Positions 23,776 through 56,560 of a stretch of 64,000 nucleotides of DNA are shown here, in pieces. Numbering within the stretch: position 1 is the stretch's first letter; each line of letters starts with the position of its first letter. The position numbers and the translations under genes are program-made. Source of the DNA: Senegalimassilia faecalis (lineage in GTDB: Bacteria; Actinomycetota; Coriobacteriia; Coriobacteriales; Eggerthellaceae); the NCBI RefSeq assembly GCF_004135645.1, contig NZ_SDPW01000001.1:2356001-2420000 (forward strand), given 5' to 3'. The notes under the pieces were generated by a model, which saw nothing but the letters and a program-made list of their open reading frames with translations, had not been told where the DNA came from and made no database searches.

Positions 23776-26333
<2,558 letters not shown>

Positions 26334-33210: not shown

Positions 33211-33270
33211 GTATTACACCTCCTTCTTCCTCAAACTCGGGTTCCGCCCCATGCGGGTGGAGTCGCGCTT

Positions 33271-33314
33271 GAGAAAAAGAACGACCCCTGCCGTCCTCAG
33301 ACACAGGGGTCGTT
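33271..33314 (-). terminator. attenuator in the rplJ leader
   Basis: An 11-bp perfect stem (AACGACCCCTG with its complement, 33280-33290 and 33304-33314) is followed on the minus strand by TTCTTTTTCTC. It lies about 60 bases before rplJ. Either it ends an upstream transcript or, more likely, it is a transcription attenuator for rplJL, as known in many bacteria. Confidence 0.7.
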
Positions 33315-33405
33315 GAAGTGCGATACTTAACAACCACCTCGGCGGGCCGCTTTCGCGATTGAACCTTTCGGTGCCTGCTGTCTTTGGCAGCGGAACTGCT
33401 TTACG

Positions 33406-45290: not shown

Positions 45291-45334
45291 GCCGGCCTCT
45301 CGGCCGCTCGCGCGCATAGAAAAGCGCCCTCCGC

Positions 45335-45448
<114 letters not shown>

Positions 45449-45579
45449 GCGGGGGGCGCTCCCCCGCGGCTCATGGATATGAGCCTGCCCGGGTCCCCTT
45501 CCGGGGCGACCCTGGCGGCCGTGCAGCGAAGGAAGCTGCCCGCACATCGACGCCTCGCAAAATCCCTTACGAGGATGCG

Positions 45580-50350
<4,771 letters not shown>

Positions 50351-51020
50351 AAGAAGAGCGGGGCCGGTCTCCCGTCCCCGCGATCTTTGGCATAAAAAGA
50401 AAAACTTTAAAAGAAATTGTAAATCCGGGGCAGGCGGGCTCAAAGTAGGTAGGCCCTGCCTGCGCTGGCTTCACTGGCTATTGTGATCGTCTCTTGTCCA
50501 GTATCCGGTTCTCAAGGTTCCCGCCTGCGGGGGTGCTCCCCGCGGCTTTCCCTTCGGAGCAGGCCCGCTTTCGCTTGCCGCCCCTCAAGGCGAGGATGTA
50601 CTTTACGCCTCCCCCGCCGGCTTGGCAAGCCCCCATCTTCGAGATGCTGGGTTCTACACATTTTGCACACATTCTGATATTCTACGAACATCTGTTTGTG
50701 TTTCTTGAATTTCAAGTTCATCGCATCTGATCTCTTAGATGCTCTTGTTTGATGCTTAGCTCATTCGCTCTTGTTCCTCATCCGTTGCTATCTGAGTTCT
50801 TTTGCATTCAACCTTGCTTGTCTTTTCAGACGTCACTGATTTCAATCCTTATACCTTCAGTGCTATTTTCTTTTGCAGCTTAGCTACTGCTACTTTTCTG
50901 TTCCTGCTTTTAATCTGCCTCCCCGTCTCCCACTCTTACCTTCTTTCACTCTTCGTTTTTGAGCTGTCTATTGTAATTAGCGTTTCTTCTATGAGCCGAT
51001 TCGGCCGACTGCCACAACGT

Positions 51021-51050
51021 CTATATACTTCTATATATTTCTATATATAG
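51021..51050. repeat. AT-rich decamer repeats
   Basis: Three tandem ten-base units, CTATATACTT, CTATATATTT and CTATATATAG. Further TTCTATATTT-like elements appear near 51271. AT-rich direct repeats of this size are typical of DNA-unwinding elements at replication origins. Confidence 0.7.
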
Positions 51051-51655
51051 ATGTCTGCTTTCTCTGTCGACTACAGCAGAAGACTCGTTTTCTGAAATCT
51101 TTCTCGCTGCGCCCCAAATATCTAGGTGTTCATTATTTCGTCAACTAATTTTGAAGGCGCTTCTTAATGCGTGGGTAAATAGAATTGTAATCTCCTTATG
51201 GCATCTGTCCTTGTCTGCATGCAATCTTTTATCCTCTGCGTCTACTTGCAAATTTGATTTTGCTCTTGCCATATATCCGCTTCTATATTTCCACTCATGA
51301 TTGCGTTTCTATTCGCGTAGTTACCTCTTTGCATGCAACTCGCCATACTTGCGCCTGCTGACACTGCTTTATTGCTACCCAATACTTGCTTCAAGTTTGT
51401 CCACACATCTCATCTGGTTCTGCTGAGCATTATTGTTTTTGAATCATTTCTTGTATTCATATATTTGCCATTCGGATTTTTCCCATATAGGCATTCTTGG
51501 TCTTTACGAAATTATCTTATGTAATCCTGCTGTATGGTGTCTTCTGAGTCATGCTGTGTCATATATTGTATTTCGGATTTGGTTTCATTTTGATGTTTGA
51601 ATTTTCTTAATCCTATTTCTAAAGCAATATTTTGCAGTCTGTTTCTCTATCGTCT

Positions 51656-51762
51656 TTGCTGCTGTTTGCTTCGTTCTTCAAAATCCTTACTGTGCAGTCG
51701 CTGCACAGTAAGGATTTCCTGAATCCCCATATCACTTAGACCTGCGACACAAACAGCAGCAA
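51656..51762. repeat. dyad site 1 with outer inverted repeat
   Basis: The inner dyad at 51681-51717 has perfect 17-bp arms and three central bases (TCG). Its core is TACTGTGCAG, TCG, CTGCACAGTA. Outer perfect 13-bp inverted repeats (TTGCTGCTGTTTG at 51656-51668 and its complement at 51750-51762) enclose it. Confidence 0.85.
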
Positions 51763-52295
51763 TTGAACTAATCAACATGATGCAGTCACCAAACTGATTG
51801 TGAACTTCCACTGAATTGAAAAAGCCTGAATCGAGTGGCTTCAAATATCTATTCAGCAATCAATCTAATACCATTCATCTAATCAAGTTCAAAGTGAATG
51901 AAACGCTGCTTGTAGCCGACAATCAATTGGACTTGCTCAACCAAGCCAAGTGAGTGATTTCGTCAACGTGGGTTAGTGGGTTATTTCGCTGATGACCGTT
52001 AGTGCTTGCTCGAGTCGATTCATCACTTATAAACAAGCACTCATAGGGATTTGATTGAGTAACTACCACAACTTTACTTGTCTTAAAGATGCATTAGTGA
52101 AACTAAAATGCAGTTGCAACTACGGATTCGCGCAGCTGCAACAGTATCTCCAACAATCAAACTAATCTAGACATGCATCCCGACAGATACATACCTATGG
52201 CAAAAGATAGAGCAGCAGTAAAAGATGCTCGCTGCGCATCAATCTGAGGACATTGAATTAGTCGATGTATGGATTCCGGCTAAGCTGCACAACTG

Positions 52296-52360
52296 GTTTC
52301 TCCTTTCCAGAATCATTACTGTGCAGTCGCTGCACAGTAATGATTCTGGAAAGGAGAAAC
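52296..52360. repeat. dyad site 2, 65-bp palindrome
   Basis: Perfect 31-bp arms (52296-52326 and 52330-52360) flank TCG. The inner 10 bases of each arm are the same core as in sites 1 and 3, while the outer parts differ, so the site was rebuilt outward as a palindrome. A cruciform or very stable hairpin could form. Confidence 0.9.
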
Positions 52361-52514
52361 TGGGTGCGACGAACTTAGGGCAAGCTCGGTCGGCTTATGG
52401 GGTCCAAGGAGATGAGGCCTGTCGACATATAGTTACAGGGTGAAATGCCATACTGTTCTTAGGAGAGTTTTAACAAATAGTTTGTGAAGTGAGCCATTAA
52501 TTATTATATATTCA

Positions 52515-52573
52515 TTGTTACTAAAGACACCGTTTGTTAGAATATCTACTGTGCAGCGACTGCACAGTAGATA
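52515..52573 (+). promoter_or_regulatory. parA promoter with dyad site 3 as operator
   Basis: TTGTTA (52515-52520) and TAGAAT (52538-52543) are spaced by 17 bases. The third dyad (52543-52573, 14-bp arms) starts at the last base of the -10 and covers the expected start of transcription. Its centre is CGA, the reverse of sites 1 and 2. A protein bound here would repress parAB. Confidence 0.7.
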
Positions 52574-52631
52574 GAATTTAGACGTACGTTTGTTCGTGTA
52601 CAACCCCTTTCCATATAAGACAGGAGCCTTG

Positions 52632-53633
52632 ATGGCCGGAAGAACCAAAGCACGTGGCGGAGAGAAGCAGCAGCAGTCTCTTTCGCTAGGACGCGAAACC
52701 GTCGAAGAGCTAGAAAAGGAAGCAGAGCGTAGAGGCCTCAACAAGTCTCAACTTGCCGACTTACTGCTAAACGGTCAGCTTACTCAATCGGCGGATAAAC
52801 CGACGATCATTTCGATTATGAGTTACAAAGGCGGCGTGGCCAAAACCACTACCAGCACATGTCTTGCCGTTTGTCTTTCGGAACTGGGATATAAAGTACT
52901 GGTTATCGACATGGACGGTCAGGGCAACGTGAGCCAGAGCCTTCGCGTGTACGACCCGCGCTCCGAAGAGGCTTGCATTGCCGATGTATTGTATCAGACC
53001 TCCCCGAACTCGCCGCGCCTGACGCTGCGCGAAGTAATGAGGACAACCGAGTACGAGAACGTGTACTGCGTGCCTTCGAACTTCCGATTCGCAGATGCGG
53101 ACACGCGCTTGAAAGCAGAAATTGCTGGCGGCGTGGATACCCGACTTCGCTATGCGATTGAAGATCTTATCAGCGAAACTGCAAAAGCAGGCGAACGTAA
53201 GTTCGATTACATCATCATCGACTGCGGTCCTCGCTTGGACATGACTACGACGAACGCGATTGTGGCACTTGAGGCAGGCAATAACGCTTCGCACATCATC
53301 ATCCCGATTAAGGTCGACGGCTTCGCCATTGCCGGCCTGTCTCAGACGATCGATACCATCAACCGCACAGCAAAGGAGCGCCGTCGCCTTCCGCAGCATT
53401 GGAAAATCTTGCAAACGATGATCGAACGCAATACTTCCGCGTATAAATATGGTTGCCAGATGCTGAAAGAAGCGATTCCGAATGCTGAATACTTCAACAC
53501 GAAAATCGAGAAGAGCACCGTGGTACCCGAAGCAAGCTTGGCAATGGAACCGCTCATTACGTACGACCCCAACAGCAAACCAGCCATTTCGTATCGACTG
53601 CTGGCTCAAGAAATCGAGGCCATGAATGCCTAG
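52632..53633 (+). CDS. parA: ParA ATPase with N-terminal ribbon-helix-helix domain
   Basis: A 333-residue partition ATPase. Residues 57 onward have the deviant Walker A (SYKGGVAKTTTS, residues 64-75), Walker A' (VIDMDGQGNVSQSL) and Walker B (YIIIDCGPRLDMTTTNA). Residues 15-49 (QSLSLGRETVEELEKEAERRG, here in two pieces QSLSLGRETVEEL and EKEAERRGLNKSQLAD) look like a ribbon-helix-helix DNA-binding domain. Most ParA proteins have either no N-terminal domain or a helix-turn-helix. ATG 52632 has AGGAG seven bases before it; a longer TTG form is unlikely. The stop overlaps parB by eight bases. Confidence 0.9.
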   Translation: MAGRTKARGGEKQQQSLSLGRETVEELEKEAERRGLNKSQLADLLLNGQLTQSADKPTIISIMSYKGGVAKTTTSTCLAVCLSELGYKVLVIDMDGQGNVSQSLRVYDPRSEEACIADVLYQTSPNSPRLTLREVMRTTEYENVYCVPSNFRFADADTRLKAEIAGGVDTRLRYAIEDLISETAKAGERKFDYIIIDCGPRLDMTTTNAIVALEAGNNASHIIIPIKVDGFAIAGLSQTIDTINRTAKERRRLPQHWKILQTMIERNTSAYKYGCQMLKEAIPNAEYFNTKIEKSTVVPEASLAMEPLITYDPNSKPAISYRLLAQEIEAMNA

Positions 53634-54687
53634 GAAGAAACTGCAAGCTGCCATGAAAAGCGGCGGGGGAGCCGTGGCAAACGTGATTCCTCGACACGAA
53701 AAGCTAACCGATGAGCAAATGCGCTTGGCCGCGTTCGAAGCTCGCGATAATCAGGAAACGTCTATCACCGATAAAATGGCGAACGACAACCGTCGCAATA
53801 CGCTGCTGGCGGAAATGGGCTTTGACTGGTTCGACATCAATAGCCTGACGCCGAATCCTAACAACAGCTACACCATCACCGATGAAGACGTGAAAAACCT
53901 TGCGGGCTTGATCTGGAACAGCAAGGAAATAGAACCGCTGATTCTTCGCGAAACCGAAGACGGCATTCAGATCATCGATGGCGAGCGTCGCTGGAGAGCC
54001 TGTAAACTGCTGGCAGAGAAGTACGGCGATGCATGGCGAATGGTGCCCGGACGCTGCCATAAAATGGGAGCGATTTCCGACGAGCAGGCCAACTTCATCA
54101 TGCATTCCAGCAACATAGGCCAGCGCAACATAAAGCCGTCGGAACGCGCCCAAGGCTTCAAAGTACTGGCTGACAAGCTGGTCGAATGGCGTAAAGAGGA
54201 CCCGGCGCTGAAAGGCGTGAATACTAAGACGTACCTAGCGGAGCACTTCGGAGTATCGGAAAGAACCGCACAGGTGCTGCTGAACATCGCAAGGAACCTC
54301 TCAAAAGAAGGAAACGACCTTCTTGACGCGGGGAGCATCACGCAAACGCAAGCAGAGGCGCTGTCAAAACTGCCGAGTGTAAAGCAAGATGCCGTAGTAA
54401 ACGCAATGCGAGAAGAGAACCTTACGCCGGACGAAATTACCACGCTTATCGAAGCGACCAAAAAGGCTGAAACGGAAACGGAACCCCAACCGGTAAGTGA
54501 GATTACGCGAACGATCAAAGCCGAGCCGCAAAACAAGGAGTCAAAGCCGGCAAAAGATATCAACGGGTATCTGAAAAGCGCGAGAAACGCATTGCGCAAG
54601 GCAGAAAGCGCTGAAGGCGAAGCAGACTTCAGGCTTATCGGCGAGATAAAGGCTTCCATCAGAAACATCGAAAAGTCACTGGAGTAA
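53626..54687 (+). CDS. parB: ParB-like centromere-binding protein
   Basis: A 353-residue ParB-family protein. The CTP-binding N-domain has ITDEDVKNLAGLI and DGERRWRA (the GERR motif, residues 119-122) and box II is SSNIGQRNIKPSERA. The helix-turn-helix is YLAEHFGVSERTAQVLLNIA around residue 210. The C-terminal 60 residues are helical and charged and likely dimerise. It is translationally coupled to parA. Likely DNA sites are the three dyads upstream. It resembles plasmid rather than chromosomal ParB, whose 16-bp parS is not seen here. Confidence 0.88.
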   Translation: MPRKKLQAAMKSGGGAVANVIPRHEKLTDEQMRLAAFEARDNQETSITDKMANDNRRNTLLAEMGFDWFDINSLTPNPNNSYTITDEDVKNLAGLIWNSKEIEPLILRETEDGIQIIDGERRWRACKLLAEKYGDAWRMVPGRCHKMGAISDEQANFIMHSSNIGQRNIKPSERAQGFKVLADKLVEWRKEDPALKGVNTKTYLAEHFGVSERTAQVLLNIARNLSKEGNDLLDAGSITQTQAEALSKLPSVKQDAVVNAMREENLTPDEITTLIEATKKAETETEPQPVSEITRTIKAEPQNKESKPAKDINGYLKSARNALRKAESAEGEADFRLIGEIKASIRNIEKSLE

Positions 54688-56262
54688 GCGGCAATAGTAA
54701 AGGCAATAAAACCGCCAACGTTTACGATAAAGAAGAGCATGCCAAGACAAAGCCCTCTGGAAACTGACAAGAATCAGTGGAAAGAGGGTTTTTGTCACTT
54801 TGAAGTACCTGACAACAGAAGGAGAACCAGAGGTTAAACCGATGGAATCCCCAAGCTTCAGGGCGAGGGAGATAGATGGCAGAACAGAGCACTTCAAAGA
54901 CTCGTATGACAAAAAATTGCAAAGTATATCGTGTTTCTTGTTGTAGCGATTCATTGAAATGATGTTATATGATCTTGTACGTTTTCTTGTTACGGTTTGC
55001 CCTGCAGCCTTGAGGACGGAAGCAACGGTTCGAGGGGAGCAACCTACAGAATTTGCAATCTGGGCATGGGTGTATCCTTCCTGCCTGAGAGACAGAATCA
55101 TGTGATTACGTGTTTGTTTGCGTTGTGCAGTGAGTTGCTTTTGCTCCTTTCGTTCGAGGGAACGCTTCGATTCGAAGAAGTTGAGGTCAACAAGTTCTTG
55201 AGGAGTAAGGGCAAGAAGCTCAGTTAAACGCTGAGCCCCAATGAGGTAGTAGCCTTTTTCGCCTCGAACGTTGGTGACTTCGTCAACGGAAGCGATAACG
55301 CCTGCAAGTTCTTTTTGATCCAGCGGCTTGATGAACTGGTTATTGAAAGTCTTGAGACGAGTTTTCGCTTCGTCGCGCATATAGATTTGCACCGCCGTGT
55401 TGTAGAACACGAACGACATGAGCTCGCGCGTGCCCTCGCAGTCGTAGTTGCGGTATTTCTGCAGTTCGATGAGTTTGCCGAGCCGGCTCATGAGCATCGG
55501 CTGGAAACGCATGATGCTTGCAGGACGCGCAAATGAAGCGCGCAAGGACTGGGTTTTCATTTGAGTATTCGACTGGGCGAAACGGTACAGACTCGAGAGG
55601 CTGTAGAACACGTCTGCGTGTTGCACGAGCGAGGCGAACTGGCCGGCTTTTGCGTTGAACGTACCGGGGATGCGCGAAACACGCGAAACATCGAACGTTG
55701 CGCGATCGACTTCGAGTCCCTCAACAGGGGAAACGATGCGTTCGAGCGTATCGGCCAGGCCGGATTGCACGAGTTCGAACAGGTGAACGGCCTTCTGGTT
55801 GATAGAGCCGCTTTCGAATCGGTACGGCACAGAGCGCTCAAGCACGAAGAAGAGCTGCACGCCACGGCCGGAATTGATGGTCATGGTTGGCTGGGGAAGC
55901 AGGTGCGCTTCGACAGCTTGTTGCAGCACGTTGAGCGCATGGTGCACCGTTGCGTGCGTGCGTGCAGCATCCTGGTTGTGGCAATCGAGGTCGAAGAACA
56001 ACGCGTTCAGCTGTCTGACCTGGTGAGATTTGCGGCAGCACGAAGTGAACCCGTTGTGGGTCATGTAGTAGCTTGCCCGCGGGTTGAAGCCCAAAGCGGG
56101 AAGCGAATCTTTTTTCACAGCGGTATCGGTCCAGGTTCCGTTGGCGCAAGACGACACGACGTAATAGCTGTTGCGGTCGTCATGGGTGATGAGCCGGTAA
56201 AAGGTTTCCCACTCGGATTCCTGAATCGACGATGCCGCTGCGCTCGATTGCTGTCGAGACAT
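54676..56262 (-). CDS. plasmid-type replication protein with primase-polymerase fold
   Basis: A 528-residue protein. Residues 85-200 match archaeo-eukaryotic primase/Rep proteins: ALFFDLDCHN supplies the metal-binding Asp91 and Asp93, NSGRGVQLFFVLE is the following conserved block, and RVSRIPGTFNAKAG matches the motif III region. Near residue 405 is a helix-turn-helix (YTHAQIANSVGCSPRTVASVL). The last 90 residues are unusual, hydrophobic and encoded across the parB terminator, so the original stop may have been lost. It is convergent with parB, overlapping by 12 bases. It would initiate replication of a plasmid-like replicon. Confidence 0.75.
   Translation of the reverse strand: MSRQQSSAAASSIQESEWETFYRLITHDDRNSYYVVSSCANGTWTDTAVKKDSLPALGFNPRASYYMTHNGFTSCCRKSHQVRQLNALFFDLDCHNQDAARTHATVHHALNVLQQAVEAHLLPQPTMTINSGRGVQLFFVLERSVPYRFESGSINQKAVHLFELVQSGLADTLERIVSPVEGLEVDRATFDVSRVSRIPGTFNAKAGQFASLVQHADVFYSLSSLYRFAQSNTQMKTQSLRASFARPASIMRFQPMLMSRLGKLIELQKYRNYDCEGTRELMSFVFYNTAVQIYMRDEAKTRLKTFNNQFIKPLDQKELAGVIASVDEVTNVRGEKGYYLIGAQRLTELLALTPQELVDLNFFESKRSLERKEQKQLTAQRKQTRNHMILSLRQEGYTHAQIANSVGCSPRTVASVLKAAGQTVTRKRTRSYNIISMNRYNKKHDILCNFLSYESLKCSVLPSISLALKLGDSIGLTSGSPSVVRYFKVTKTLFPLILVSFQRALSWHALLYRKRWRFYCLYYCRLLQ
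54753..54793 (+). terminator. parAB terminator
   Basis: CCCTCT and AGAGGG arms, with an inner ACTGA/TCAGT pairing, are followed by TTTTTG on the plus strand, 65 bases after the parB stop. It lies inside the 3' end of the convergent rep frame. Confidence 0.7.
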
Positions 56263-56355
56263 GCTGCACCCTAAGCAGAGGCGGAAAGCCCCTGCTCCTC
56301 GTCGAAGTTATTTCGTTTTCGACAATGAAAAAAAGAGTGCAAAAACAAGAACGCC

Positions 56356-56384
56356 TTGTGAGCGCCTGTTCAAAGTGATAAAAT
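56356..56384 (+). promoter_or_regulatory. antisense RNA promoter
   Basis: TTGTGA (56356-56361) and TAAAAT (56379-56384) are spaced by 17 bases on the plus strand. The start would be near 56391. Confidence 0.65.
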
Positions 56385-56390
56385 ATCAAC

Positions 56391-56463
56391 TGTGAGTGAG
56401 TGGTCGATACATGATCACTTAGGCAGCCCCCAGTTGGCGCTGGGGGCTTCTTTTTTTTCTTTT
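56391..56463 (+). ncRNA. putative counter-transcribed RNA controlling rep
   Basis: A predicted RNA of about 70 bases starts near 56391 and ends at a strong terminator. It has two stem-loops: AGTGGTC...GATCACT (56400-56420 region) and the terminator stem. It is transcribed opposite to rep and complementary to the rep mRNA leader, which would run from about 56514 to 56262. This is the arrangement of copy-number control RNAs in plasmids. No known family is matched. Confidence 0.65.
56425..56463 (+). terminator. terminator of the antisense RNA
   Basis: AGCCCCCAG and its complement (56425-56433, 56440-56448) flank a six-base loop and are followed by a long T-tract (TCTTTTTTTTCTTTT). It is a textbook intrinsic terminator on the plus strand, yet no protein gene lies upstream on that strand within 1.7 kb. 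Confidence 0.88.
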
Positions 56464-56520
56464 GTCTGTTCACGGCTTGGGCATGTTGGCGCATGCTTGT
56501 GCCGCTTGTAACGCGTTCAG

Positions 56521-56560
56521 TCTATAACAAAAAACAGTGAAGTGTCCACTGGTTTTTGTT
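56521..56560 (-). promoter_or_regulatory. rep promoter with overlapping operator
   Basis: On the minus strand TGGACA (56543-56548) and TATAGA (56521-56526) are spaced by 16 bases. A dyad with 14-base arms and one mismatch (AACAAAAAACAGTG at 56526-56539 and CACTGGTTTTTGTT at 56547-56560) overlaps the -35 and spacer, so a repressor, perhaps Rep itself, may control it. Confidence 0.65.

Follow-up and report, generated by a model that had tools for sequence, protein, structure and literature searches.

A predicted antisense control RNA opposite the leader of a plasmid-type initiator gene on a probable second chromosome of Senegalimassilia

The stretch of DNA analysed in this work (the window, 64,000 bases of Senegalimassilia faecalis) carries a small transcription unit opposite the leader of a replication gene, rep, and the best reading of this unit, going by its sequence, is an antisense control RNA. 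In our main reading, to which we give a probability of about 0.7, a cis-antisense RNA of ~68 nt would lower the synthesis of Rep, a PrimPol-type plasmid initiator, and in this way would set the copy number of a replicon that would be a ~0.96 Mb chromid of Senegalimassilia. The initial annotation of this DNA had likened the unit to the copy-control RNAs of plasmids. Conservation and covariation speak well for the antisense unit facing the rep leader, as a unit of the type that sets copy numbers. The plasmid, on the other hand, is not upheld, as the replicon is probably a second chromosome, with an origin marked by GC skew, a size of ~0.96 Mb, the single copy of ligA, rRNA operons and conservation throughout the genus. 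The antisense RNA would probably control a second chromosome, and not an ordinary plasmid. The wider claim, that an assembly join has concealed an essential second chromosome of Senegalimassilia, that this is the first plasmid-type chromid of its phylum, and that its rate of initiation is governed by an antisense RNA through a PrimPol initiator, is one that we hold at slightly better than even odds. A small chromid of plasmid type in a human gut genus would make it testable how antisense copy control is tuned to once-per-cycle replication, and how the core genes of a chromosome became reliant on an initiator of plasmid origin; it is also a warning that a contig regarded as complete may conceal another replicon.

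The antisense unit and its conservation

Table 1. Features of the rep region and other features of the window, by position
Feature	Position	Strand	Basis or remark
ligA, NAD-dependent DNA ligase	23776-26070	-	Sequence search; only copy found in the genome
rRNA operon	45334-50351	-	Points away from the predicted origin
GC-skew turning point (negative to positive), predicted origin region	51000-54000		GC skew
Palindrome TACTGTGCAG-N3-CTGCACAGTA, candidate partition site 1	51681-51717		Sequence
Palindrome with 31-base arms, candidate partition site 2	52296-52360		Sequence
Palindrome, candidate partition site 3	52543-52573		Sequence; same core upstream of parA in S. anaerobia
parA of the rep replicon	52590-53633	+	Pfam AAA_31, 1.6e-38; PHROG ParA
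parB of the rep replicon	53626-54687	+	Pfam ParB_N, 3e-07; PHROG ParB, 3.4e-28; tail to tail with rep
rep, PrimPol-type replication initiator with C-terminal helix-turn-helix (predicted)	54676-56262	-	Plasmid Rep relatives and AlphaFold2 model
rep mRNA leader (putative), ~250 bases	56263-56512	-	5' end placed near 56512; complementary to the whole antisense RNA
Antisense RNA promoter	56356-56384	+	-35 TTGTGA, 17-base spacer, TAAAAT with TG before the -10 (extended -10 TGATAAAAT); consensus scan
Antisense RNA (predicted), ~68 nt	56391-56458	+	Start placed ~7 bases past the -10, end at the T tract; fold and conservation
Stem-loop 1 of the antisense RNA	56397-56421	+	9 pairs, 7-base loop; fold
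Terminator hairpin and T8 of the antisense RNA	56425-56458	+	10-pair stem 56425-56448, loop UUGGCG, T8 at 56451-56458
Candidate rep promoter TGGACA-18-TAGACT	56519-56548	-	Consensus scan; conserved in genus members

The elements of the unit that the initial annotation had described were all recovered (Table 1). A consensus scan found the same promoter, which is sigma-70-like with 9 of 12 consensus matches; promoter-like sites near the unit number three in 1.4 kb, against 0.6 expected from shuffles. The described RNA of about 70 bases with two stem-loops agrees with the predicted fold of 56390-56460 (-30.8 kcal/mol, z -3.75), which is equalled by none of 200 dinucleotide shuffles, and the terminator with its uninterrupted T8 tract was found again at its 3' end. 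The plus strand within 56356-56463 contains no ORF of 50 aa or more, in line with the earlier statement that the unit has none. At gathering scores no Rfam family matches the RNA, and the sub-threshold matches are weak.

A search for rep was positive in 10 of 138 genomes of the family and in 11 of 395 genomes of the order. Upstream DNA was readable at ten rep loci (the window, G096, G097, G104, G135, G056, G041, G116, G117 and G392), G085 being excluded as it lies at a contig end, and the antisense unit is found upstream of rep in all ten, which represent seven genera and two families. In each case the strand opposite rep bears a -10 box, a predicted RNA of 60-100 bases, and a GC-rich hairpin with a T-rich tract after it; most of the loci show a clear -35 box, the one in G041 and in G392 being weak, and the promoter spacing in the relatives is of the same class as in the window. 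The RNA folds better than its shuffles at every one of these loci, with z from -2.9 to -6.0. In the other two members of the genus there is hardly any change in the promoter, the RNA or the terminator, whereas the sequence past the unit differs.

The covariation of the two stems that had been proposed as a check is evident in the terminator stem. G392 was excluded from the alignments and from the covariance model, which leaves nine aligned loci. Eight pairs of the terminator stem are formed in 72 of 72 cells among diverging sequences, with double-sided changes in six of the eight, a count made after the hairpins had been hand-trimmed to the stem, which leans towards pairing, and for which slid controls reach at most 69.8%; in the untrimmed alignment RNAalifold gave double-sided changes in five of the eight pairs. 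Stem 1 is kept with a different sequence in most relatives and is clear in seven of the nine loci, but is weak in G041 and G116. When run against the 395 order genomes, the covariance model hit exactly one place in each of nine genomes, these being the nine training loci, and nothing further at E <= 0.001; the G392 locus was missed by the model.

The unit tracks rep and not upp, and the other neighbours change between loci. For five loci outside the genus the neighbouring genes were compared with those of the window's genome (G000); rep is present in all five and parA-parB in four, while G117 has its rep divided between two contigs and gave a match to neither parA nor parB. Four loci have UUGGCG as their terminator loop, two have UUGCCG and two UGCCAG; G392 has UUGCAG, and G104 has CGCCAA, the complement of UUGGCG. 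This loop motif is presumably akin to the kissing loops found in control RNAs of plasmids.

Rep and the proposed control of its synthesis

Rep matches 52 of 72,556 plasmid records, mostly replication proteins of Firmicutes plasmids, with 22-28% identity among the best listed, and none of 50,697 phage records. In Pfam it has no replicase match at E <= 0.1, PriCT_1 appearing with just E 0.019, below the cut-off. Residues 15-230 of the AlphaFold2 model (mean pLDDT 73.9) align with 6zp9, the PrimPol of cyanophage S-2L (Z 17.5, rmsd 2.8, 173 aligned), and with 3h25 (Z 13.8, rmsd 4.6, 176 aligned), and the model gives Z 13.8-14.4 with RepB'; a helix-turn-helix lies near residues 385-420. The predicted model suggests that Rep has a catalytic fold of the PrimPol (archaeo-eukaryotic primase) type.

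The earlier claim that the rep leader is complementary to the whole antisense RNA is supported by the promoter-like site on the minus strand at 56548-56519, from which rep transcription would start at ~56512. In the mechanism that we propose, the antisense RNA would base-pair with the leader of the rep mRNA via its exposed loops, and this pairing would lower the synthesis of Rep; with Rep limiting initiation, the copy number of the replicon would thereby be tied to the dosage of the initiator. It is from sequence that we infer the transcription of the unit, the pairing between the two RNAs, the inhibited step and the control of copy number.

As for the inhibited step, translation or the folding of the leader would be a better guess than attenuation, because blocking of the antisense target made no terminator and because leader hairpins beat their shuffles in just two of nine leaders. 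More specifically, when the window leader was folded with the target blocked, the downstream fold was little changed, no terminator was created and the start site was not masked; the part of this leader beyond the target has no terminator-like hairpin. Attenuation in the rep leader is not favoured, as a hairpin with a T-run beats all 12 shuffles only in the leaders of G104 and G135, and not in that of the window. Beyond the antisense target, the G104 leader has a strong hairpin of terminator type (L071:1752-1790, minus strand; -21.2 kcal/mol), the tail of which is T-rich, and attenuation may operate there. An open frame of 104 aa (56180-56494, minus strand) also lies in the window leader and overlaps the start of rep, and its piece IFYHFEQALTRRSCFCTLFFIVEN is similar in S. 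anaerobia and partly so in G097. This frame could be a leader peptide, but the likeness is not evidence for one, since the frame overlaps the conserved antisense promoter, which alone may explain the similarity.

The plus-strand transcript might instead belong to upp, as an attenuated leader, and would then not be an antisense regulator of rep; upp is the gene that comes next on this strand, ~340 bases downstream, and it does so in all three members of the genus. However, seven further loci have the unit together with rep, and no upp homologue was found at the five loci compared with the genes of the G000 pieces, and we consider an upp leader very improbable. It is also conceivable, if doubtful, that only the hairpin of the rep mRNA matters, as an attenuator or structural element of the leader, without any plus-strand RNA. 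The inverted repeat does fold on both strands, and in two relatives a strong hairpin resembling a terminator occurs later in the leader; against this stand the -10 boxes and the T-rich tracts 3' of the hairpin that the plus strand carries in nine of nine aligned loci, with -35 boxes in eight of them, and the lack of such a downstream hairpin in the window leader noted above. An antisense control RNA remains our preferred reading of the unit.

Likeness to known copy-control systems

The features expected of an antisense control RNA that were found here are, as a sequence pattern, a promoter and a terminator of its own opposite the rep leader, and retention with rep, with compensatory change. 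The Rfam family with the lowest E-value at the locus is ctRNA_pGA1 (RF00236), an RNA from a Corynebacterium plasmid, which matches with its whole model on the right strand at 19.4 bits (E 0.14); with a gathering score of 45 bits for this family, the RNA was not assigned to it. The Rep of ColE2-type replicons is a primase-type initiator whose mRNA leader is covered by the antisense RNA I. The window resembles this system in its primase-type initiator and antisense-covered leader, but its Rep has no Pfam replicase match (E <= 0.1).

The repABC ctRNA (RepE, IncA) of alphaproteobacterial plasmids and chromids, as it is portrayed in PMC6090056, is likewise a small antisense RNA with a terminator stem-loop that lies opposite the leader of the initiator and beside a parAB-type system, and the replicons with such a ctRNA include secondary chromosomes (PMC6090056). 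There, however, the ctRNA lies between repB and repC in one operon and RepC is the initiator (PMC6090056), whereas here rep is tail to tail with parAB and its product is PrimPol-like. Membership of the repABC family was rejected, as rep lies on the strand opposite parAB and is PrimPol-like. In the replicon pSYSA of Synechocystis, according to PMC9978351, an abundant antisense RNA, asRNA1, is found at the replication locus together with a Rep, CyRepA1, that has a primase domain; it differs in that the RNA faces a separate small gene, RNase E acts, and CyRepA1 also has a helicase domain (PMC9978351).

The rep replicon within the 2,745,045-base contig

The GC skew of the window flips at the rep locus, where it is strongest. 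Over 61 stretches that make up 46% of the 2,745,045-base contig, the skew reaches a minimum twice, at dnaA (1.02 Mb) and again at rep (2.41 Mb), and has two maxima as well; the single-contig relatives G136 and G063 have an ordinary single skew pattern from dnaA. This contig (C1 of G000) contains a direct repeat of at least 26 kb, at 1742795-1769363 and 2698720-2725288, with an offset of 955,925 bases. Its copies are identical over 17,050 bases (100%), over 3,264 of 3,264 and over 4,511 of 4,513, the span 1,742,795-1,769,363 having been compared except for one internal 3.2-kb gap; the left edge lies between 1,735,000 and 1,742,795 and the right one before 1,789,121. The repeat includes the start of an rRNA operon, and may stem from the joining of two replicons during assembly or from their natural fusion. 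A cut at the repeat yields two circles, A (1,789,120 bases, carrying dnaA) and B (955,925 bases, carrying rep). Just one assembly in few contigs was available; it shows a single contig, and the signature of two circles lies within it.

Two circles would put the antipode of dnaA at 0.130 Mb and that of rep at 1.934 Mb, and the best-fit turning points of the skew are at 0.16 and 1.94 Mb. Among 126 windows of 10 kb, the sign of the skew is correctly given for 107 by two circles, for 94 by one circle with two origins and for 66 by one origin, and for 108 when the turning points are free. The rRNA operons run with the forks in seven of seven cases under two circles (six operons if the repeat is an artefact), in 6/7 under one origin and in 5/7 under two origins with midpoint termini. 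The tRNAs are weak evidence, with 18 of 27 agreeing under two circles, 14 under one origin and 16 under two origins, and both tRNAs found on circle B run head-on under the two-circle model, which counts against it. The GC content is 59.4% for circle B and 61.6% for circle A. The contig that carries rep and parAB behaves like two joined circles, A of 1.79 Mb and B of 0.96 Mb, which would be separate molecules in the cell.

Each replicon appears to have its own partition signals. The region of dnaA contains gyrA, gyrB, recF, dnaN, yidC, parA and parB, together with clustered DnaA boxes. Exact canonical parS sites around dnaA number eight, from 1,015,954 to 1,053,360; one further near match, at 909,061, is also on circle A, and none was found in the stretches of circle B searched. 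At rep, three long palindromes with the core given in Table 1 lie upstream of parA, and they are the only three in the 1,264,000 bases searched.

Rep and the antisense unit are present in three of three genomes of the genus. In S. anaerobia JC110 (G096) dnaA is on contig C2 and rep on C4. Reciprocal best pairs between G000 and S. anaerobia, from sampled pieces (n=171) and counted with a boundary of 1.766 Mb taken from the repeat, assign C3, C4 and C6 to circle B in 49 of 49 cases and C1, C2 and C5 to circle A in 109 of 122; the other 13 fall in circle B, and nine of these form one block. This block (G096 C1:449721-458534, corresponding to 2.165-2.178 Mb on circle B of G000) lies with genes of the dnaA replicon in S. 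anaerobia, and is the one clear exchange between the replicons. On C3 of S. anaerobia the skew turns from positive to negative near 380 kb, and C3 and C4 (774 kb) therefore resemble a closed replicon with its own terminus. Steep skew beside rep is common to both other genus members, being on one side of rep in G097 (180 contigs, of which the rep and dnaA regions were read).

The only copy of ligA that was found lies on circle B in both G000 and G096, and none was found in the incomplete G097. Circle B also carries der, gpsA, ruvB, prfC, yebC, upp, mnmA, the genes for aconitase and isocitrate dehydrogenase, and rRNA operons. With regard to what defines a chromid, it has plasmid-type replication and partition genes (rep, parA and parB) together with core genes (ligA, der, gpsA and ruvB), and it is conserved in the genus in that rep and the RNA occur in 3/3 genomes, the split in gene content being shown in one relative. 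An Rfam match to the L10 leader in the window (33267-33405, minus strand; 44.2 against a threshold of 44), adjoining a large frame without Pfam match, is probably due to chance.

Second chromosomes are known mainly from Proteobacteria. Our search of open-access journal papers listed no report of a second chromosome in Coriobacteriia, and in the main text of PMC13342612 and PMC12456017 a term search found neither the genus name nor Coriobacteri- or Eggerthell-. For Embleya, a paper of 2026 describes a secondary chromosome that it claims to be the first in Actinomycetota (PMC13152386). This chromosome is similar to circle B in being a second chromosome of this phylum with core genes and conservation in its genus, but it has 4.2 Mb and no known plasmid-type replication system (PMC13152386), whereas the replicon described here is of plasmid type and would be circular.

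A single circular chromosome with two active origins, the rep replicon being an integrated part of it and the antisense RNA acting on the second origin within that one molecule, is unlikely, though it is the most plausible of the alternatives. It accords with the assembly, a single 2.745-Mb contig with two skew minima; its midpoints, which by arithmetic lie at 1.718 and 0.345 Mb, nevertheless miss the observed turning points by ~0.2 Mb, whereas two circles come within ~0.03 Mb, and the repeat of at least 26 kb at the joins and the persistence of the gene-content split in S. anaerobia speak against it as well. The rep region could also be the functionless remnant of an integrated plasmid, with the second skew minimum caused by inversions, since the cassette sits among unrelated genes in other genera, possibly on plasmids. 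The intact rep frame and strong adjoining skew in three of three genus members, and the peak of the skew at rep, argue against a remnant, which would further require two independent inversions meeting exactly at rep; we regard it as highly unlikely. The reading of circle B as a chromid under antisense control is the one that we prefer.

In other genera, the cassette of parA, parB, rep and the antisense unit is found among unrelated genes at L072, L073, L075 and L076, which may be plasmids or further second chromosomes. At L073 (G056) the skew flips at rep.
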